This document shows, piece after piece, positions 1 to 13,728 of a stretch of DNA of 64,000 bases (position 1 is the stretch's first letter; each line of letters begins with the position of its first letter). Origin of the DNA: Serratia silvae. GTDB lineage: Bacteria > Pseudomonadota > Gammaproteobacteria > Enterobacterales > Enterobacteriaceae. Made by a program: the position numbers and the translations under genes. The stretch covers positions 62,001-126,000 of the forward strand of contig NZ_JAGQDC010000008.1 of assembly GCF_023282985.1 (NCBI RefSeq), in the 5' to 3' direction. The notes under the pieces are model-generated. The model saw nothing but the letters and a program-made list of their open reading frames with translations. It was not told the origin of the DNA and did no database searches.

Positions 1-274
1 TGTCACGGGTTTGCAACTGCGCCAATTCCTCTACTTGTTCAGTAATCAAATCGCTGACGCGATGCAGGATCGCCGCACGCTGATGCGGCACCAGTCCACG
101 CCAGCTCGGATCGCGCCAGGCTTTTTCTGCCGCCGCAACGGCCTCATTCACATCCTCGACGTTGGCCGCTCGCAGGCGAGCATTCACGCTGCCATCAGCC
201 GGGAAAACCGAACTCATCTCTTCGCCGCGCCCTTCGCACCAGCGGCCGGCAAGAAAAATCTTTAACGTTTCCAT
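1..274 (-). CDS. aldehyde dehydrogenase, N-terminal part (runs off the window)
   Basis: The first 91 codons of a protein that continues beyond the left edge. The start ATG at 274 follows an AGGAGC ribosome site and lies 16 bp after the stop of the aspartate-dehydrogenase-like gene. The N-terminus has the FLAGRWCEG opening, an FPADGSVNARLRAA stretch and an AEKAWRD helix, the usual pattern of the NAD(P)-dependent aldehyde dehydrogenase superfamily. The catalytic Cys and Glu lie outside the window. It is the last visible gene of the aromatic catabolic operon, where it would oxidise a semialdehyde produced by ring cleavage or side-chain processing; that role is inferred from position. Confidence 0.82.
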   Translation of the reverse strand, partial: METLKIFLAGRWCEGRGEEMSSVFPADGSVNARLRAANVEDVNEAVAAAEKAWRDPSWRGLVPHQRAAILHRVSDLITEQVEELAQLQTRD

Positions 275-290
275 GCTCTGCTCCTGCCAT

Positions 291-1085
291 TCAGGCAATA
301 AAACCGCCGTCCACCAGACTGCGGCAGGCTTGTACCGCACTCAGCGCCGCCAGCGTTGACGTTTTCGGGTTGCTGGCCAGTGGGTTGCCGCACAGCTCAA
401 TCTGGAACTCGCCAAACTGGCCGCACACCTGTAAGCGGTGAGTATTACGTTGAGTATGCGGATCTACCTGCAAGCGTACCCGCGTGGCATCCATCCCCAA
501 GCCATGCAGCGCAATGGTGGCCGCTACGTTGGCGTTGGCTGGGAACATGCTTGCGGCTTCCCGGGCCGACCCTTCAAAGAACACCTGCGCTTCGCTGACG
601 GCATCCAGATTAATCAGTTTTTCCGCCGGGCTGCCGCGCCAACTGGCCGGGCTTTTGCTGGACTGATAGGTCACACTGTCCAACCCGCCTTCCCGCGCCG
701 AAGCCAGGCCATCCATACCCGCCACCGCACCAGACAGCACAATCAGCTGCCCGTGGTAGCGTGCGCAGGCCTGCTGCAAACGCAGTTGCAATGCAGCATC
801 TGCCAGAGCGCCAGTAGAGATCACCGCCAGCCGCCAGCCACGTTTAACGATGGCCTCACCAAACTCGGCGACCGCCTGCTGGCTGGCACACTCCACCACC
901 AAATCAGGTTGCTCGGTACACTGGTCAGGATGGGTCAGCGCCTGCACCTGTCCGGCAAATGCAGCGTCGATCTCAACATGATGCGTTTCCCGTGCCACGA
1001 TCCAACCCACTGCCACGCCCTCCGGCAGGCGCGCAAGCACCTCTTTTGCCATCGCGCCATAGCCAATCATCATGATCTTTTTCAT
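291..1085 (-). CDS. L-aspartate dehydrogenase family protein
   Basis: 264 residues, the usual family size. An N-terminal Rossmann fold carries GYGAMA (residues 8-13). The C-terminal half has the family signatures NVAAT, GMDATRVRLQVDP, a histidine in RNTHRL matching the catalytic His position, FGEF and NPKTS. Known members reductively aminate oxaloacetate or oxidise L-aspartate with NAD(P). Here it sits between an SDR and an aldehyde dehydrogenase in an aromatic catabolic operon and not beside NAD biosynthesis genes, so the true substrate may be a keto or imino acid released from the aromatic compound (inference). The family call is firm; the substrate is not. Confidence 0.82.
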   Translation of the reverse strand: MKKIMMIGYGAMAKEVLARLPEGVAVGWIVARETHHVEIDAAFAGQVQALTHPDQCTEQPDLVVECASQQAVAEFGEAIVKRGWRLAVISTGALADAALQLRLQQACARYHGQLIVLSGAVAGMDGLASAREGGLDSVTYQSSKSPASWRGSPAEKLINLDAVSEAQVFFEGSAREAASMFPANANVAATIALHGLGMDATRVRLQVDPHTQRNTHRLQVCGQFGEFQIELCGNPLASNPKTSTLAALSAVQACRSLVDGGFIA

Positions 1086-1098
1086 CTTTTCAGTCCCG

Positions 1099-1893
1099 TC
1101 AGAGATGGCGATTGAAACCGCCGGAAACGTCCAGCGCCGCGCCGGTAGTAAAGGAGGACATGGGGGAGGCTAAAAACAGCAGCGCCCGTGCCGGTTCCTG
1201 CGGTTTACCTAAACGCCCCATAGGGATGCCACGCCGCTCGGCAATCGCTGCTGTCCACTGTTCCCAGCTTTGTTGTTGATCCTGGCGTTCGGCAAAGCGC
1301 CGCCGCCATTGGCCCGACTCCACCATGCCCAGTAGGATGGAATTGACGCGGACCCCTTTGCTCACCAGCTCTTTCGATAAGGTCAGCGTCATGTTGAGCA
1401 ACGCGGCACGGGCCGCCGAGGTGGCAATCATGTGCTCTTCCGGCTGCAGGGCCAGCAATGAGTTAACGCAGGTAATGGAGGCGATATCTGAACGCTCCAG
1501 CGCCGGTAAAAAGGCCTGCACCGGGTTGATCACCCCGAACAGTTTTAGCTCTGCCTCATGCAACCAGGCTTCACGCGGTGTCTGATCGAAATGTGCCACA
1601 AACCCCTGCCCGGCGTTGTTGATCAACATATCCACTGCGCCAAAATGCGTGCTGACCTGCTCGGCAAACTTGGCAACCTGCTCGGCGTCGAGCACATCAC
1701 AACGTAACGCCAGGATCTCCGCCTGCGGGAACTCTTCACGCAGGCTGGCCTCGGCGCTGGCCAGTTTGTCCTGATTGCGGCCACAGAAAGCGACTTTCGC
1801 CCCTTCGGCCAGCAATAGACGCAGCGTTTCAAAACCGATCCCCGAGGATCCTCCGGTGACCACCGCCACTCGCCGTTCAATCTGAAAATTCAT
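1099..1893 (-). CDS. SDR-family protein without the Tyr-Lys catalytic pair
   Basis: 264 residues with a classical short-chain dehydrogenase layout. The cofactor motif TGGSSGIG is at 13-20 and NNAG near 92, with a serine near 145 in the catalytic position and a C-terminal GAALDVSGG. The usual YxxxK is replaced by Thr158 and Arg162 (TSAAR), read directly from the DNA. Its start ATG overlaps the stop of the upstream hydrolase gene (ATGA), so the two are translationally coupled. NAD(P) binding is likely. Ordinary alcohol dehydrogenation is doubtful; it may have a non-redox or unusual role in the pathway. The reading frame is intact with no sign of decay. Confidence 0.8.
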   Translation of the reverse strand: MNFQIERRVAVVTGGSSGIGFETLRLLLAEGAKVAFCGRNQDKLASAEASLREEFPQAEILALRCDVLDAEQVAKFAEQVSTHFGAVDMLINNAGQGFVAHFDQTPREAWLHEAELKLFGVINPVQAFLPALERSDIASITCVNSLLALQPEEHMIATSAARAALLNMTLTLSKELVSKGVRVNSILLGMVESGQWRRRFAERQDQQQSWEQWTAAIAERRGIPMGRLGKPQEPARALLFLASPMSSFTTGAALDVSGGFNRHL

Positions 1894-2708
1894 GGTTGGA
1901 TTGCCCCCGTAAAGTCCTGCAAATAGCGGTTAAACAGCGCTGGCGCATCGAGATAGCTGGCATGCCCCGCCGCATCAATCAGACGGATTGTCGCATCCTG
2001 CTGTTGCGCCAACGTTGCGGCCCCCTGCGGTGGCGTGATGCGATCGACACTGCCACACCACACCTGTAACGAGCCGCGATAGCGCACCAGGTAACGGTTG
2101 ATATCGTCATTGGCCAGCATCCAGGCGGCACTGAGAAAACCGGCTGGATCAAGTTGCTGCATGCCGCTGCGTACCCAGGCAATATCCTGCGGATCCGCAT
2201 CTTCACGTAGCAGTGCCGCCGCTCGCTGTTCGCCGTAGCCCTGTGGGCCAAGCGTTTCGATCATCTGTTTGCGTTGGCCATACACCTGCTGGCGTTTTTC
2301 CAGCGGCGCAGTGGCATAGCCCTGCGCCGGATCGGCTAATACCAGTCCACTCACCCCATCTGGGTTGGCGGCAGCAAAGGCACTACCGATCAACGCACCG
2401 AGCGAATGCCCCACGATCAGCGGCTGTTGTAACTGCAACTCGGCGATCAGCGCCGCCAGCGCGTTGGCATAAGCAGTAGCATCTGGTTCTGCCTGCGCCA
2501 GCGCTGCGCTACTGCCATAACCCGGAGCATCCCAGGCAATCAGGCGGTGGCCGTCGGTCAGGGCGCGATCGCTGAACTGCTTCACCCACGAAGCGGAACC
2601 GGAACTGATGCCATGCAGCAGTACCACGGCCCGGCCATGCCCGGCTTCGCGCCAACTCAGCCGTCGGCCTCCACAATCCGCCTGCTGGCGTTCCGGTAAG
2701 CCGTTCAT
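1890..2708 (-). CDS. alpha/beta hydrolase, possible ring-cleavage product hydrolase
   Basis: 272 residues from the ATG at 2708, which overlaps the cupin stop by one base (TGATG); a longer upstream reading would sit inside the cupin gene. The oxyanion-side LLHG is at 31-33, and the nucleophile elbow GHSLG places Ser102. Asp222 (GSVDR) and His249 (AGHAS) complete the triad. It resembles meta-cleavage-product hydrolases and enol-lactone hydrolases. With an extradiol dioxygenase in the same operon, C-C or ester hydrolysis of a ring-opened product is the most economical role (inference). Confidence 0.82.
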   Translation of the reverse strand: MNGLPERQQADCGGRRLSWREAGHGRAVVLLHGISSGSASWVKQFSDRALTDGHRLIAWDAPGYGSSAALAQAEPDATAYANALAALIAELQLQQPLIVGHSLGALIGSAFAAANPDGVSGLVLADPAQGYATAPLEKRQQVYGQRKQMIETLGPQGYGEQRAAALLREDADPQDIAWVRSGMQQLDPAGFLSAAWMLANDDINRYLVRYRGSLQVWCGSVDRITPPQGAATLAQQQDATIRLIDAAGHASYLDAPALFNRYLQDFTGAIQP

Positions 2709-3232
2709 CAGTTGCGCTTCACTTTCGACAACGGGTGATCGGCCGGGTAAGTCGGGGTTTCCGGCTTGGAAGTACCGAGCATCACGCACATCAGCGCTTC
2801 TTCTTCGCCGTGATTGAACAGGCCGCGATAAATCCCCGCCGGAACAGAAATCAGGTCACGCTCTTTCAGGATGGTTTCGTAATACTCTTCACCGTCCTGG
2901 ATCATCAGCGTGATTTTGCCTTTGAGCATAAAGAACACTTCTTCAACGTCGTCATGCAGGTGCAATGGCCCCTCACATTTCGACGGCAGTACCATGGTAG
3001 AGAAGGTAAAGTTCCCCGCCGGAATGGTGTTGGTGTCGCTGACGACGCCAGTGGCACCAGTGCCGATATAACGCATCTGCGCACGGCGGTACTTTGGATC
3101 GTAATCGGCCTGAAACTTCAGCGCGTTCCAGTCATATTTACGGCCTTCGAAACGGGCGATACGCGATTCCACCCACTTCTCCATTGTCAGATCCTGCGGC
3201 TTGATGCCGGCTTTCTTCTCAACCTGGGACAT
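2708..3232 (-). CDS. single-domain cupin protein
   Basis: 174 residues. I chose the ATG at 3232 because AAGGAG precedes it at ideal spacing; an upstream in-frame start lacks this. The cupin metal site is visible as His91, His93 and Glu97/98 in motif 1 (GPLHLHDDVEE) and His141 in motif 2 (LFNHG). Cupins in such clusters act as metal-dependent oxygenases or isomerases, or protect intermediates. Nothing in the sequence separates these options. It is translationally coupled to the hydrolase downstream. Confidence 0.78.
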   Translation of the reverse strand: MSQVEKKAGIKPQDLTMEKWVESRIARFEGRKYDWNALKFQADYDPKYRRAQMRYIGTGATGVVSDTNTIPAGNFTFSTMVLPSKCEGPLHLHDDVEEVFFMLKGKITLMIQDGEEYYETILKERDLISVPAGIYRGLFNHGEEEALMCVMLGTSKPETPTYPADHPLSKVKRN

Positions 3233-3252
3233 GTTGTCTCTCCTTCGTTGCA

Positions 3253-4515
3253 TCAATACTTATTCAGTAACGGCAGCAGAATGGCGCAGCCGGCAAAGGC
3301 CATCACCACCAGGAACAGCAAACCGTTATCCATATTGCCGGTGGCGGCGATCAGCGCCCCCATCAGCACCGGTGCCAATGCGCCGGCAAAATTACCCAAT
3401 CCGTTAAATACCCCGCCAGCGGTAGCGCTCACCCGGCTGCTGGTTGCCTTGGCCAACAGCGCGAAGATGTTTGGCGCACCGGCTCCCCACATAAAGGTGC
3501 TGAAGGACATGGCGGCGATCACGCTGTAGGTACCTTGCATATGCAGAACGACACCCAAACCGATCCCGGCACCGCATAGCGAGATGAAACAGGCCAATGC
3601 GCGGCGATCCATCTTGTCCGATAACCAGGCCCCCACCACTTCACCCAGCAGCATGGCAATAAACGGCAGTGACGACAGGTATCCGGCGTGCTCCAGATGA
3701 ATGCCTTTGCCTTCGATCAGATAGCTCGGTAGCCAGCCGTTCATGCCCCACAGGTAGGTGAGAAACGCGATGTTAAACAGGCAAATCATCCAGAAATGTG
3801 GAGTGCTGAACAGTTCACGGCGCAGTTGTTTACGTTCGGCAACGGCCGGTTTACTGGTGTTGCTGGCAGCCGGGCGCGCCACGTTAAGGTGACGCATACC
3901 AAACAGCACCAGCAACATCACCGGCACGGTCAGAAACGCCATAAAGAAGAAGGTGGTTTCCCAGTTAAAGCGGCTGAGAATGAACAGCGTGACCGGGAAG
4001 CCCAGCGCCGCCCCAATCGGGGTCCCCAGCAGCCACAGCATGGTGGCACGCGCCTGGAGACGTTGCGGAAAAGCCTGGCGTACGATGGCATAAGCCATTG
4101 GCAACAACGGCCCTTCGGCGATGCCCAGCAGGATACGCAGCGTCATCATGGTGTGATAAGAGCGCGTCATCCCCATCAGCACCATCAGCACGCCCCAGGT
4201 CACCATCATGCCAATCAGCACTTTGACCGGATTGAGCCGATCGCCAATGCCGCTCAACAGCATCGAAGAAAAGCCGTAAGAGAATAAAAAGGCGCTCATC
4301 AGCAGCCCGAGCCGGGTGGGATCAAAGCCTATGCCCATCGCCTGCTGAAACTCGTGGTCAGAAAACAGCGCGGCAATGCTGATCTTGTCGAAAAACGCCA
4401 GTAACACGCAGGCAAACAGGGCTGCTGGCACCGACCAACGCACGCTGGTTGGCGAATTTTCGGCAACAGCATCCCCCACCCGACCGCTGCGGGCGTCGAT
4501 ATCTTGCGTAGTCAT
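3253..4515 (-). CDS. MFS transporter, aromatic or organic acid uptake
   Basis: 420 residues with about 12 hydrophobic segments. The first begins near residue 28 (VPAALFACVLLAFFDK), and a charged central loop is near 210-230. The loop between helices 2 and 3 (GIGDRLNPVKVLIG) and the 8-9 loop (AWLSDKMDRRALA) fit the anion:cation symporter branch that includes phthalate, hydroxybenzoate and glucarate importers. An aspartate in helix 1 (FFDK) is typical. Placed between the reductase and cupin genes, it most likely imports the substrate of the pathway. Confidence 0.82.
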   Translation of the reverse strand: MTTQDIDARSGRVGDAVAENSPTSVRWSVPAALFACVLLAFFDKISIAALFSDHEFQQAMGIGFDPTRLGLLMSAFLFSYGFSSMLLSGIGDRLNPVKVLIGMMVTWGVLMVLMGMTRSYHTMMTLRILLGIAEGPLLPMAYAIVRQAFPQRLQARATMLWLLGTPIGAALGFPVTLFILSRFNWETTFFFMAFLTVPVMLLVLFGMRHLNVARPAASNTSKPAVAERKQLRRELFSTPHFWMICLFNIAFLTYLWGMNGWLPSYLIEGKGIHLEHAGYLSSLPFIAMLLGEVVGAWLSDKMDRRALACFISLCGAGIGLGVVLHMQGTYSVIAAMSFSTFMWGAGAPNIFALLAKATSSRVSATAGGVFNGLGNFAGALAPVLMGALIAATGNMDNGLLFLVVMAFAGCAILLPLLNKY

Positions 4516-4539: not shown

Positions 4540-5751
4540 TTATTTCAACGCCATCAGAGAAAATTCCACATCCGCCAGTTGCTGCGGATCCAGTACCCGG
4601 CCACTGGCCAGCCAGCGTTTACCCAACTTGATGGTACGCGCGTCGTTAAACGCGACCAGTTGCACCAATTGCCGATCGGCATTCAGGGTGAAAAACAGTT
4701 GTGACTGCGGTGTGCGGCGCACTATCTGGTGAACGCCGCCGGTAGGGACGCCCAGGATTTGAATATTGGCGTCGTATTGATCCGACCACAGCCAGGCCAC
4801 ATCATCGTAAGGTGCGGCAAACGCATCCAACATGGCGCAAGCGGTGCTGATCGCCTGATTCTGTGCGTAGGCCCAGGATTGCAGACACAGGCCGAGGGTG
4901 GGATGGCACGCAACATCGCCGGCGGCAAAAATGGCCGGGTGGCTGGTACGCCCTTGCCCATCTACGACGATCCCGCCTTCAAGGCGCAGCCCGGCTGTGC
5001 GTGCCAGTTCCAGATTCAGTTCAACGCCAATGCCGACAACCACCAGGTCGAAGGGCTGCGCGGTACTGCTGGCGCTGCCAATCCAGGCTTCACCATCGCG
5101 ATCTTCAAGCGTGATCTCGCCGCAGTCACAATGTACGGTAACGCCTTGCTGTTGATGCAGTTCCAGCAAAGCCTGGGAAACGCTAGCCCCTACGCTACGC
5201 ATACACAGCGCGGGTTGACGCTCAAACACCGTTACGTCAACGCCCAGCTTGCGGGCCGAGGCGGCAATCTCCAACCCGATCCAGCCACCACCCACAATCG
5301 CCAGCTTTTGGCATTGCAGTAAGCCTTGGCGCAGGCGTGCCGCATCATCCCAGGAACGCAGGGTCATCACTCGCGGGTGCTTGGCCCAACTGGCATCCGG
5401 CAGGCGTGGTCGGCCACCGGTGGCGATCAGCAGTTGATCGAACTGCAACTGGCTGCCGTCGCTGAGCGTGACGATTTGCTGCTGCCCGTCGATGGCTTCG
5501 GCACGAAGTGGGCGGTACCAGTCGATATTCATCCCGGCGACCACCTCTTCACTGAACAGGCGGCTGAGCGGCGCACTACCATCCAACAGCGCTGCCTTGG
5601 AGAGCGGTGGGCGTTCGTAAAAATCATAAGGCTCGTCACTGATCACCGACAGCCTGCCGCTATAACCGCGATCACGCAGCGTTTTCGCCGCCCAACCACC
5701 GGCCTGACCACCGCCGATAATGACAATGCCTGCACGGGTTGCTTGGCTCAT
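4540..5751 (-). CDS. FAD/NAD(P)H ferredoxin reductase of the Rieske oxygenase system
   Basis: 403 residues, glutathione-reductase-type. It has an FAD-binding GGGQAGGWAAKTLR near the N-terminus, an NAD-binding GGGWIGLEIA near residue 155 and the FAD-contacting IFAAGDVA near 275. This architecture matches BphA4/CarAd-like reductases, which pass electrons from NADH to a Rieske ferredoxin. The partner ferredoxin is encoded at 9786-10103 and the oxygenase at 8411-9454. The start overlaps the stop of the extradiol dioxygenase gene (ATGA). Confidence 0.88.
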   Translation of the reverse strand: MSQATRAGIVIIGGGQAGGWAAKTLRDRGYSGRLSVISDEPYDFYERPPLSKAALLDGSAPLSRLFSEEVVAGMNIDWYRPLRAEAIDGQQQIVTLSDGSQLQFDQLLIATGGRPRLPDASWAKHPRVMTLRSWDDAARLRQGLLQCQKLAIVGGGWIGLEIAASARKLGVDVTVFERQPALCMRSVGASVSQALLELHQQQGVTVHCDCGEITLEDRDGEAWIGSASSTAQPFDLVVVGIGVELNLELARTAGLRLEGGIVVDGQGRTSHPAIFAAGDVACHPTLGLCLQSWAYAQNQAISTACAMLDAFAAPYDDVAWLWSDQYDANIQILGVPTGGVHQIVRRTPQSQLFFTLNADRQLVQLVAFNDARTIKLGKRWLASGRVLDPQQLADVEFSLMALK

Positions 5752-6689
5752 ACCGCCCCCGGCTTCTTATGTTGGCGGCGGGTATCGTGATCGATACCGC
5801 CTTCGACCGCCCATTCGGTAAACGACACCAGCGAATGCTCCAGTTCACGCGGCTGCCAGTTTTCCGTCAGGTAGTCATCATTGGTGTAATACTCAAAGGC
5901 ACCGCCGGTCGGGCTGTTGACGTACCAAAAATAGGCCGAGGAGATCGGGTGGCGGCCTGGGCCAATAAAGGTGCTCCACTGCTCTTTATTCATCGCGATG
6001 CCGCCGCCGATCACTTCATGGATATCGCGTACGGTGAAAGCAACGTGGTTTAGGCCCCGTGGGCGGTTAGGCAGTTTCAGCAGGAACAGGTTGTGATGAC
6101 CACCGCGTGCCTGGGTTCTCAAGAAGACGGCGCGATCGATATAGCGGTCGGACACCTGGAAACCGAGCAGATCGCAGTAGAAGCGTTCGGTAGCAGCCAA
6201 ATCCTCAACGAAGAACACCACGTGGCCGATATTAACCGGTTCGGCTTTAGCATAAACCGGGCTAGGCTGGTCGATACGGCGTACATCGCCCCATTGGTTG
6301 ATCGGTGAAACCGGCAGCTCTACCACCCGCTGCGCGGTGACGGTAAAACGCAGCGTCATGCCGTTGGGATCGCGACATTCCAGTTCTTCGCCAACGTGGC
6401 GGAAGCCAGGCATCTGCACCAACAGGGGTTGCAACGCAGCCAGCGCGGCCGGGCTTTCAACCGCCCAGGTCATGCGGCGCAGGGTAGAACCGGCTTCAAA
6501 CGCGGCCGGTAAGACCTCGCTGTCTTGCGGATACAGCACCACGCTAGCCCCGCTCAACGTGGTAAATTCACGGCGCGGTTCGCCCCAATGTTGTAGCGTC
6601 GGTTGCAGACCGAAGTCCTGCATAAACTTTTCGCACGTTGGCAGATCTTCGACGCCAAATTCCAGCTTTTCGATTCCGGTTATGCTCAT
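5748..6689 (-). CDS. extradiol (VOC-type) ring-cleavage dioxygenase
   Basis: 313 residues with two vicinal-oxygen-chelate repeats (about 5-120 and 152-275). The C-terminal repeat carries the iron ligands of type I extradiol dioxygenases: His156 (IGHVVF), His215 (LNHVAF) and Glu266 (AFEYY), close to the H146/H210/E260 spacing of BphC. It should open a catechol ring next to the hydroxyl pair. The start has GAGGC upstream. It is the first gene after the IclR gene and a 138-bp gap containing a promoter, so it heads the second transcription unit of the cluster. Confidence 0.87.
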   Translation of the reverse strand: MSITGIEKLEFGVEDLPTCEKFMQDFGLQPTLQHWGEPRREFTTLSGASVVLYPQDSEVLPAAFEAGSTLRRMTWAVESPAALAALQPLLVQMPGFRHVGEELECRDPNGMTLRFTVTAQRVVELPVSPINQWGDVRRIDQPSPVYAKAEPVNIGHVVFFVEDLAATERFYCDLLGFQVSDRYIDRAVFLRTQARGGHHNLFLLKLPNRPRGLNHVAFTVRDIHEVIGGGIAMNKEQWSTFIGPGRHPISSAYFWYVNSPTGGAFEYYTNDDYLTENWQPRELEHSLVSFTEWAVEGGIDHDTRRQHKKPGAV

Positions 6690-6827: not shown

Positions 6828-7622
6828 TTAGCCGACGTTAGCCTGCGGTGGCGCGCCCAGCAGGCCGGAAATTTTCACTGCGGCGTCTCGGACTTCCATG
6901 CGCAACCGCTCGCGATCCGCCTTTGGGATCTCATCGGACGGCACCATAATGCTGACCACCGCTTCCACCCGCTGTTCGCGGTTAAAGATCGGATAGACGA
7001 TTGAGGAAATGCCGTGGCGGAAGAAAGATTCGCCAATCACATAGCCACGGGCCTTATCCTGTTGCACCATCTGCCACAGCGCTTCGCGATTGGCCGGAGT
7101 CCCCGGGGCCGCATCGGGCAAGGCTTCATGCGGAAACAGGCGTTCAAACTCTTCCCGGCTGGAACTGGTCAGCAGCATACGGCCGAGAGAGGTGCGGTGC
7201 GCCGGTAAACGGGTGCCCACGCTGACCTGGTTGATCTGCGAACCAGCAGCGCTGACGCGGGCAATGTAGATCACATCATGCCCATCGCGGATCGCCAGAT
7301 GGCTGCTGCATTGGCTGTGATCGCGCAGTTGCTCGATCACCGGTTGGCCAGCCTGGGCAACATCCAGCGAGGCGATATACTCAAAGCCCAGACGCAGCAC
7401 TTTGATCCCCAGCGCAAAGGTGTTGGTGCGCGGGTTGCGCTCCAAAAAGCCCAAGTGCTCCAACGTTTGCACCACACGATAGGCGGTTGCCTTTGGCATA
7501 TCGACCAGGCGATGTAATTCTGCAAAGGTCATTTCCTTATGCTGCTCGCCGAAGGCCAGCAACAGTTGTAACCCGCGATCCAGCCCCGGGATCAGATATT
7601 TACACGCTTGATCGTCTGCCAT
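6828..7622 (-). CDS. IclR-family transcriptional regulator of the catabolic cluster
   Basis: 264 residues. An N-terminal winged helix-turn-helix (about 10-75) contains MTFAELHRLVDMPKATAYR and a recognition-helix/wing region. A C-terminal IclR effector domain (about 90-255) contains GTRLPAHRTSLGRMLL and the GISSIVYPIF stretch. IclR proteins bind aromatic or carboxylic acid effectors and control neighbouring catabolic operons as repressors or activators. It lies inside the cluster, 36 bp after the SDR gene, with its own AGGAG site. A perfect palindrome at 10126-10141 is the best candidate operator. Confidence 0.87.
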   Translation of the reverse strand: MADDQACKYLIPGLDRGLQLLLAFGEQHKEMTFAELHRLVDMPKATAYRVVQTLEHLGFLERNPRTNTFALGIKVLRLGFEYIASLDVAQAGQPVIEQLRDHSQCSSHLAIRDGHDVIYIARVSAAGSQINQVSVGTRLPAHRTSLGRMLLTSSSREEFERLFPHEALPDAAPGTPANREALWQMVQQDKARGYVIGESFFRHGISSIVYPIFNREQRVEAVVSIMVPSDEIPKADRERLRMEVRDAAVKISGLLGAPPQANVG

Positions 7623-7658: not shown

Positions 7659-8414
7659 TCAGTTAAACACGAAACCACCGTTGACCGGTATCAGTTGGCC
7701 GGTGACAAAATCCGCCAGCGGCGACAGCAGATAAAGCACGCTACCGGTTACATCGTCCGGATGCTGTGCACCTGCCAGTGCCCGGCCTTGCTCGTAAAGC
7801 TGATGCCGTTCGGCAGGGACGTATTCGGTCGCTTCAACGCGCGTCAGGCCCGGTGCGATGGCGTTGACGCAGATGCCCTGCGGCCCCAGCTCACGCGCCA
7901 TGGAACGGGTCATCGAGATGATCGCCCCTTTGCTCGCGACATAGGCCATTAGCCTTGGCGCGCCCCACAATGCGGTATCCGAAGCAACATTGACGATTTT
8001 GGCATGCGGCGTTTGTGCCAATAATGGCACCGCCGCCTGGCTCACCAACCAGGTCCCCCGTACGTTGACCTGCATGACCTTGTCCCACAGCTCAATGTCG
8101 TATTCCATCATGGTTTTGCCACCGATACCGGTAGCCATCGCGGCGTTGTTCACTAGCCCGTCGATCACTCCGCCCTGGGCTATCGCACTGAACGCCGCGG
8201 TGATGGATTGCGGTGAAGCCAGATCGATAACCTGAGCTTCAACCTGTGCCCCCTGCTCACGCAGGCTGGCGGCGCTGTCCTGCAACTCCTTCGCCAGGAT
8301 GTCGCACATCACCACGCTGGCCCCGGCCTGAGCCACCGCAGCGGCAAAGCTGCGCCCCAGCCCACGCGCCGCACCGGTGACTACGATACGCTTTCCTGCC
8401 AGCAAGCCGTTCAC
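7659..8414 (-). CDS. SDR dehydrogenase, likely cis-dihydrodiol or alcohol dehydrogenase
   Basis: 251 residues, a complete classical SDR. TGAARGLG is at 13-20, NNAA near 90, a catalytic Ser lies in NVASD, YVASK supplies the Tyr and Lys, and GQLIPVNGG is at the C-terminus. It overlaps the stop of the Rieske oxygenase gene by ATGA. In Rieske systems the next enzyme oxidises the dihydrodiol to a catechol; this is the obvious candidate for that step, in contrast to the degenerate SDR at 1099-1893. Confidence 0.85.
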   Translation of the reverse strand: MNGLLAGKRIVVTGAARGLGRSFAAAVAQAGASVVMCDILAKELQDSAASLREQGAQVEAQVIDLASPQSITAAFSAIAQGGVIDGLVNNAAMATGIGGKTMMEYDIELWDKVMQVNVRGTWLVSQAAVPLLAQTPHAKIVNVASDTALWGAPRLMAYVASKGAIISMTRSMARELGPQGICVNAIAPGLTRVEATEYVPAERHQLYEQGRALAGAQHPDDVTGSVLYLLSPLADFVTGQLIPVNGGFVFN

Positions 8415-9474: not shown

Positions 9475-9783
9475 TCAGAAACCGTTGACATGTAGGAATT
9501 CGCGGAACGTGGCTTCATTCCAAGGCTGACCACTGCGATCGAACAGGCGACGTTGATTAAGCGCGCTGACGATCTGCTCCAGCTCCTCCGCCCCTTGCTC
9601 AAAGATCTCTTCCAGCGCAGCCACCAGCGCGGTTTCAAACCCATCCGGCACGCGCGCCCGGTTTTGCCAGATCACATTCTGAAACTGGCCGGGTTGATGG
9701 ATTTGGCCGTTGCCGCCCTCACGTGCCGGGATCACCTGTTGGGTATCCGGCAGCCAAGGGTTGAAATCGGTAATGTGCTGCAT
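9475..9783 (-). CDS. small protein with recombinase-like helix-turn-helix motif
   Basis: 102 residues with no signal peptide or membrane segment. The N-terminal half is polar (NPWLPDTQQVIPAREGG). The C-terminal half (about 45-100) is helical and ends in LNQRRLFDRSGQPWNEATF, the kind of sequence found in the 'recombinase' helix-turn-helix domain of large serine recombinases, but no catalytic serine-recombinase domain is present. It lies between the ferredoxin and Rieske alpha genes, where a beta subunit gene often stands, with GAGGA before the ATG. It may be an accessory subunit or a DNA-binding protein; I do not assign a function. Confidence 0.7.
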   Translation of the reverse strand: MQHITDFNPWLPDTQQVIPAREGGNGQIHQPGQFQNVIWQNRARVPDGFETALVAALEEIFEQGAEELEQIVSALNQRRLFDRSGQPWNEATFREFLHVNGF

Positions 9784-10125: not shown

Positions 10126-10192
10126 GTTTCATATATGAAACTCAGTTTCTTATTTAATACAGTCACTATAGGTATGGCGAATCTTTCGTCAA
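10126..10192 (-). promoter_or_regulatory. promoter with downstream operator palindrome for the catabolic cluster
   Basis: On the minus strand TTGACG (10192-10187), a 16-bp spacer and TATAGT (10170-10165) form a strong sigma70-type promoter. About 10-30 bp downstream is the perfect palindrome GTTTCATATATGAAAC (10126-10141), followed by an overlapping GAAAC-TCA-GTTTC (10137-10149). Binding there would block transcription. The nearby IclR-family regulator is the natural candidate ligand-controlled repressor (inference). Confidence 0.6.
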
Positions 10193-12484: not shown

Positions 12485-13207
12485 TCAGTGTACCAATACT
12501 GGCTCCGCACGATATTGCGTTGGAAACAGCTGCTGTAGCTGTTTTACCTTCGGCAAATCATTCACCACGATATAGGGCTGATCCGGGTTAAGGGTGAGAT
12601 AGTTTTGGTGGTAAGCCTCGGCAGGATAAAAGTGGCCATTGTCCTCAATTCGGGTCACCAGCGGTTTAGCAAAACGTTTACTGGCATTCAGCTGTGCAAT
12701 ATAAGCCTCGGCAACCTGCTGTTGTGACGCCGACAGTGGGAAAACGGCTGAGCGATATTGCGTGCCGCTGTCTGGCCCTTGGCGATCGAGTTCGGTTGGG
12801 TTGTGTGCTACCGAAAAATAGATTTGCAGCAGTTGACCATAGGAAATCTGCTGTGGATCAAAGGTGACCTGCACCGACTCCGCATGGCCGGTATCACCTC
12901 CACTGACGGCCTCATAATTAGCCGTTTGTGCCGCACCACCGGTATATCCCGATACGGCATTGGCCACACCCTTGACATGCTGGAATACCCCTTGCACGCC
13001 CCAGAAACAACCGCCGGCAAAGATCGCGGTTTCCGTGCGTGATGTCGTTGGCGCTTCGTCTTTTACCGGTGCAGGGATCGCCACAGCCACCTCGGCATCA
13101 CCCAGTGGCCAGGCAATGCTTTGCCAGCAGAATACGCTAGCAGCCAATACCGCGCCCCATAGGCCGTATTTACCCAGCGATGGCATCACTTTGTCTACGT
13201 TTCTCAT
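12485..13207 (-). CDS. msrA: peptide methionine sulfoxide reductase MsrA, membrane-anchored or periplasmic form
   Basis: 240 residues from the ATG at 13207 (GAGGA upstream; a GTG four codons earlier is possible). Residues 12-33 form a hydrophobic signal/anchor, then comes a linker rich in Ala, Val and Pro. The MsrA domain starts near 58 with GGCFWG (catalytic Cys67) and has the conserved EAYHQNYL near the end. It reduces methionine-S-sulfoxide in proteins. The export signal and the partner msrB immediately upstream point to repair of oxidised envelope proteins. Confidence 0.9.
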   Translation of the reverse strand: MRNVDKVMPSLGKYGLWGAVLAASVFCWQSIAWPLGDAEVAVAIPAPVKDEAPTTSRTETAIFAGGCFWGVQGVFQHVKGVANAVSGYTGGAAQTANYEAVSGGDTGHAESVQVTFDPQQISYGQLLQIYFSVAHNPTELDRQGPDSGTQYRSAVFPLSASQQQVAEAYIAQLNASKRFAKPLVTRIEDNGHFYPAEAYHQNYLTLNPDQPYIVVNDLPKVKQLQQLFPTQYRAEPVLVH

Positions 13208-13227
13208 CTCATTCCTCACTATTCTGG

Positions 13228-13728
13228 TTAGGCCGAGCGTGGTGTAAAGAGCATGGCAGTACCATTCATGCAGTAGCGCAAACCGGTGGGTTGCGGGCCA
13301 TCGTCAAACACGTGCCCCAAATGCCCGCCGCAGCGGCTGCAATGCACCTCTTCGCGGACCATGCCCAGCGTTCGATCCTTACGCGTCGCCACCGCCTGTT
13401 CGAGGGGTTGCCAGAAACTGGGCCAGCCGGTATGGCTGTCAAACTTGGTGTGGGAAGAAAACAGCGCCTGCTGGCAACCCGCACAGGCAAACTGACCATC
13501 GCGGTGCTCATCGTTAAGCGGACTGCTGTAAGGCGGTTCCGTCCCCTCCTCCCGCAAAACCGCATATTGGCTGGCTGAAAGCCGTTGCCGCCATTGCTCT
13601 GCGGTATAATTGACAGCAAACGACTCCGCCATCGCCGAACGAGAGAAAATTGCAGGCAGCAGGCCCACGGCGTAGGCCATAGAGAGTGCCCCTCCGCCCA
13701 GAATAAAATACCGTCTGTTGATCATCAT
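13228..13728 (-). CDS. msrB: methionine-R-sulfoxide reductase MsrB with twin-arginine signal
   Basis: 166 residues. The N-terminus NRRYFILGGGA plus a hydrophobic stretch ending in AMAES is a Tat-type signal peptide. The MsrB domain has two CxxC zinc motifs (CAGC and CSRC), the GHVFDDGP loop and catalytic Cys153 in RYCMNG. It reduces methionine-R-sulfoxide and complements MsrA encoded 20 bp downstream. Together they form a periplasmic stereo-complete repair pair. Two consecutive ATG codons make the start uncertain by one residue. Confidence 0.9.
   Translation of the reverse strand: MMINRRYFILGGGALSMAYAVGLLPAIFSRSAMAESFAVNYTAEQWRQRLSASQYAVLREEGTEPPYSSPLNDEHRDGQFACAGCQQALFSSHTKFDSHTGWPSFWQPLEQAVATRKDRTLGMVREEVHCSRCGGHLGHVFDDGPQPTGLRYCMNGTAMLFTPRSA

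Follow-up and report, generated by a model that had tools for sequence, protein, structure and literature searches.

Introduction

Rieske oxygenases with alpha subunits of the VanA_C type form alpha3 trimers without a beta subunit. Among the VanA-type, alpha-only systems, carbazole dioxygenase and the systems using HcaCD/AndAab-like carriers have the same alpha, Rieske ferredoxin, and reductase components as the locus described here, and we know of no helix-turn-helix (HTH) companion in any of them. That a Rieske-type oxygenase can take a partner of an unrelated fold has a precedent in the caffeine pathway, where the demethylase NdmC works with NdmE, a protein of glutathione-S-transferase fold. 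NdmE serves here by analogy only, as its fold differs from that of the protein described below and the two have no sequence relation. On the side of the HTH fold, the systems for comparison are the short serine resolvases, in which a catalytic domain (PF00239) precedes an HTH or Recombinase domain (PF07508). Here, we describe a small gene from Serratia silvae, found in a 64,000-nucleotide stretch of DNA (the window), that combines a resolvase-like HTH with an obligate place next to a Rieske oxygenase.

Results and Discussion

The HTH_62 Gene and Its Operon

An earlier note, made from the sequence alone, had described an open reading frame of 102 residues lying between ferredoxin and Rieske alpha genes. 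The frame is present on the minus strand, and its position is borne out by the gene order and the Pfam matches of its neighbors (Table 1). It starts 2 nt past the ferredoxin stop codon, preceded by the ribosome-binding site GGAGGA, and the Rieske alpha gene starts 20 nt beyond its end. Comparison with relatives from Serratia, Yersinia, Pragia, and Budvicia gave dN/dS ratios of 0.01–0.15, so the gene is under strong purifying selection and the frame is therefore a real, translated, and constrained gene. Several Serratia encode the protein with 97% identity, and the chromosome is Serratia-like.

On the minus strand, the genes follow in the order ferredoxin, HTH_62, Rieske alpha, SDR, IclR, VOC, FAD reductase, MFS, cupin, alpha/beta hydrolase, SDR, aspartate dehydrogenase, and aldehyde dehydrogenase, contents that suggest the catabolism of an aromatic compound. 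None of the NCBIfam equivalog models scored above its cut-off with the oxygenase. The alignment of alpha subunits shows no variation in the Rieske ligand motifs or in the His/Asp residues that are presumed, by analogy, to be catalytic. The HTH protein had been placed in the slot of a beta subunit; the oxygenase has a VanA_C-type alpha subunit, and because enzymes of this type, as alpha3 trimers, have no beta subunit, the phrase can only be positional. The HTH protein likewise has no Pfam match to the SnoaL/NTF2-like fold of beta subunits and is predicted by AlphaFold2 to have a helical HTH core instead. Elsewhere in the window (12485–13728), adjoining MsrA-like and MsrB-like frames carry N-terminal extensions that resemble export signals by eye. 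A study of Acinetobacter baumannii and mucin reported differential expression of genes for aspartate dehydrogenase (A1S_0956), betaine-aldehyde dehydrogenase (A1S_0957), and acetolactate synthase (A1S_0958) (PMC5757984).

Table 1. Features of the HTH_62 operon and its upstream region, in window coordinates.
Feature	Position	Strand	Remarks or basis
Sigma-70-like promoter TTGACG-16-TATAGT	10165..10192	(-)	Upstream of palindrome
Perfect palindrome GTTTCATATATGAAAC, 16 nt	10126..10141	(.)	Proposed IclR operator
Rieske-type [2Fe-2S] ferredoxin, 105 aa	9786..10103	(-)	First operon gene; PF00355; nearest AndAb, under cut-off
HTH_62 protein, 102 aa	9475..9783	(-)	Disordered N-terminal tail (~1-45) and three-helix HTH (48-62, 68-77, 90-100)
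Rieske oxygenase alpha subunit, 347 aa	8411..9454	(-)	Rieske + VanA_C; obligate neighbor of HTH_62
SDR oxidoreductase	7659..8414	(-)	4-nt overlap with alpha gene; ORF and Pfam
IclR-family regulator, PcaR/PobR-like	6828..7622	(-)	Profile searches
VOC/extradiol dioxygenase-like protein	5748..6689	(-)	Profile searches
FAD ferredoxin reductase, HcaD/AndAa-like	4540..5751	(-)	Profile searches
MFS transporter	3253..4515	(-)	Profile search
Cupin protein	2708..3256	(-)	Pfam
Alpha/beta hydrolase	1890..2789	(-)	Pfam
Second SDR oxidoreductase	1099..1893	(-)	Pfam
Aspartate dehydrogenase-like protein	291..1085	(-)	Pfam
Aldehyde dehydrogenase, start; leaves window	2..340	(-)	Homologous position annotated in other records

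The Fold and Its Kinship with Serine Resolvases

In the hmmscan search of Pfam, the protein proved to be a clear member of the family PF20552 (HTH_62, "Recombinase-like helix-turn-helix domain"; E 2.3e-21, 76 bits against a curated cut-off of 27 bits), which all 33 aligned homologues also match. The proposed comparison with the Recombinase domain thus came out on two sides, with PF20552 clearly matched and PF07508 itself below its cut-off (E 0.23, 12.2 bits against 21.1). The catalytic resolvase domain PF00239 was not matched by hmmscan, and the protein, at 102 residues, lacks a catalytic domain as had been supposed. The domain is already catalogued by Pfam and NCBI, where homologues bear the product name "recombinase-like helix-turn-helix domain-containing protein," and this family name records a likeness only. 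Our literature search returned no paper that names HTH_62, PF20552, or the phrase, and none on the function of the domain or its pairing with an oxygenase.

The AlphaFold2 model, computed from an alignment of 24 homologues, shows a three-helix HTH spanning residues 48–100 with a core pLDDT of about 92, following a tail of about 45 residues that is predicted to be disordered (mostly pLDDT 52–55). The helix-turn-helix on which the earlier reading depended is thus predicted. A Foldseek search of the model against the PDB gave nothing significant (no match below E 3), and a sequence search of the PDB found no relative; a weak match to HomA (E 0.095) looks like chance and was discarded. We saw no metal-binding motif in the protein, and a comparison with a library of defence systems gave no match.

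The weak end of the PF20552 genome search also includes longer frames of about 220–310 residues, several recognizable by eye as serine resolvases, and Pfam confirmed PF00239 in all three that were scanned. In hhalign, HTH_62 aligns over 75 columns to the HTH at the C-terminus of short serine resolvases, with a probability of 95.5% and an E-value of 1.6e-8 that applies to one single comparison. On the strength of this alignment, we take the two domains as homologous, and the likeness to a recombinase DNA-binding domain noticed earlier is upheld by Pfam, hhalign, and the AlphaFold2 model alike. Leu, Gly, and Trp positions are common to HTH_62 and the short resolvases, but HTH_62 lacks the catalytic domain, is acidic instead of basic, has lost a conserved Arg, and has gained a [WHF]-Q-x-R motif and a tail.

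Reversal of Charge in the HTH Core

The charge of the HTH domain is reversed between the two groups. The cores of the oxygenase-linked proteins are acidic in 33/33 cases (net charge −2 to −10, pI 4.05–5.5), whereas the resolvase HTHs are basic in 14/14 (net +3 to +8, pI 9.4–12). With a net charge of −5 and a pI of 4.6, the core of the window protein is devoid of basic DNA-binding character, the charge being that of the whole domain rather than of a mapped surface. The Arg just before the recognition helix, near-invariant among resolvases (12/13), is mostly replaced by the neutral or acidic residues Ser, Asp, Gly, Gln, or Glu. The [WHF]-Q-x-R motif preceding helix 1, in turn, is invariant or nearly so in the oxygenase-linked proteins, with Gln40 present throughout and Arg42 in 31/33; Glu50, outside the motif, is invariant as well. 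These features suggest that HTH_62 has lost the ability to bind DNA.

Pairing with One Oxygenase Clade

The pairing of the HTH_62 gene with the oxygenase gene is firmly established, as is the reversal of charge. Across the pooled samples, where the oxygenase was searched for independently of HTH_62, an HTH_62 gene lies upstream on the same strand in 93 of 94 oxygenase copies, within 150 nt in 90 of them and at a median distance of 69 nt. The sole unpaired copy is a fragment of 87 residues, and the PF20552 hits that lack an oxygenase, four in number, comprise two whole resolvases and two C-terminal pieces of resolvases. Standalone HTH_62 occurs in 15 of about 399 genomes of the phylum sample, and these are precisely the genomes that have the oxygenase (E ≤ 1e-30); in the sample of the window's own family, both occur in the same 12 of 118 genomes. 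The family of genome G583 has the oxygenase in 70 and PF20552 in 71 of 150 genomes. Since the full-length oxygenase hits all cluster tightly together (E 1e-98 or better), the pairing is a property of one clade and not of Rieske oxygenases generally.

Replicons of Acinetobacter, Klebsiella, Caballeronia, Novosphingobium, and Streptomyces also carry the pair, and two genomes with two oxygenase clusters each (G667 and G829; loci L084, L087, L116, and L164) have an HTH_62 gene for each cluster. At three alphaproteobacterial loci (L078, L079, and L082), HTH_62 is found about 2.7 kb upstream of the oxygenase; in L078, the gap holds an ABC transporter ATPase gene. At many loci (L004, L016, L020, L088, L119, and others), the two genes share a reading frame, with one or two stop codons and a short spacer between them, and we saw no natural fusion.

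Sequence kinship with resolvases could also point to a functionless remnant of a resolvase or mobile element. The gene keeps its place in gamma-, beta-, and alphaproteobacteria as well as in Streptomyces, which contradicts such a remnant, as does its low dN/dS, and we give this explanation practically no credence.

Regulator or Oxygenase Partner?

A constant gene order alone does not tell whether a protein is a subunit or a regulator. The earlier note had offered both options, an oxygenase accessory protein and a local regulator embedded in the operon. As a local regulator, the HTH might bind the promoter DNA of the operon, or bind and tune the IclR protein; its fold is akin to resolvase DNA-binding domains, and the sequence just ahead of the operon contains a conserved palindrome. 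The palindrome GTTTCATATATGAAAC is kept in Serratia, Yersinia, Budvicia, and Klebsiella, and the Pragia copy differs from it by one mismatch. However, a symmetric TGTTCC...GGAACA occupies its position in Burkholderiales, and this change of letters with retention of symmetry fits the dimeric IclR regulators encoded in the clusters. The palindrome is probably the operator of IclR, which would bind it at 10126–10141. A third half-site flanks the palindrome (10126–10149; GAAACTGAGTTTCATATATGAAAC on the minus strand). Against a regulatory role also stand the acidity of every linked domain and the loss of the resolvase Arg, together with the fact that the gene tracks the oxygenase, one copy per oxygenase copy, and not any regulator. 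We regard the local regulator as quite unlikely, and of the two options a protein-level partner of the oxygenase, be it a subunit or a docking or assembly factor, is favored because of the 1:1 pairing, the acidic domain, and the presence of a separate IclR with a conserved operator-like palindrome.

As a whole, our proposal is that HTH_62 acts at the protein level as the dedicated partner of one alpha-only Rieske oxygenase clade, most likely binding the oxygenase, and we consider it reasonably probable. The HTH_62 core has a common ancestor with the HTH found at the C-terminus of serine resolvases; its DNA-contacting chemistry would be gone, and the fold would now serve protein contact. HTH_62 may bind the oxygenase as a small subunit or as a factor for assembly or electron-transfer docking, and its disordered tail may fold on the partner where a separate Rieske ferredoxin is used.

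Within a protein-level role, HTH_62 could instead be a transient chaperone of oxygenase assembly, acting in iron or [2Fe-2S] insertion or in folding and remaining outside the finished enzyme. The position directly upstream of the alpha gene and the 1:1 pairing agree with a chaperone, as does a small, tailed, and acidic protein; the want of a visible metal-binding motif and of any homologue with a chaperone role among those found speaks against it, and we judge this sub-case rather doubtful.

The single-chain AlphaFold2 model of HTH_62 and the oxygenase, for which glycine took the place of the intervening stop codon in the Serratia relative L004, gave a pTM of 0.71 and no sign of an interface in a construct comprising neither the trimer nor the ferredoxin. 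The first 20 residues of the tail stayed at a pLDDT of about 30, and the confidence of the HTH was not raised, with a shallow alignment of 42 rows. Tree distances (mirror-tree, 18 loci) revealed no coupling beyond that common to all operon genes; the value of 0.96 for HTH_62 and the ferredoxin was not specific once all genes were compared over the same 18 loci.

The N-Terminal Tail and the Electron Donor

All loci with an adjoining Rieske ferredoxin gene encode the long form of HTH_62, and a tailless form is encoded at L068, L070, L072, and L084, four loci that have a VanB-type reductase instead. In G667 and G829, one HTH_62 copy per genome is tailed and the other short. The rule is incomplete, as the tail also occurs at some Cupriavidus-like loci that lack a neighboring ferredoxin gene and the N-terminus of the alphaproteobacterial forms is shorter and of a different kind; the correlation between tail and ferredoxin is also confounded by phylogeny. 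We advance only tentatively, as a possibility somewhat short of probable, that in one Rieske oxygenase clade a resolvase-type DNA-binding domain was converted to a subunit or docking factor that the enzyme cannot do without, with a tail adapted to the electron donor, ferredoxin or VanB-type reductase.

Implications

The annotation "recombinase-like" at present misdirects researchers. If HTH_62 is required for activity, a component has gone unlisted throughout the oxygenase clade of Serratia, Klebsiella, Acinetobacter, Burkholderia, and others, and expression from the alpha subunit, ferredoxin, and reductase alone would fail. If true, the proposal would clearly exemplify the conversion of a DNA-binding domain to the partner of an enzyme, and relatives that still bind DNA are available for comparison.
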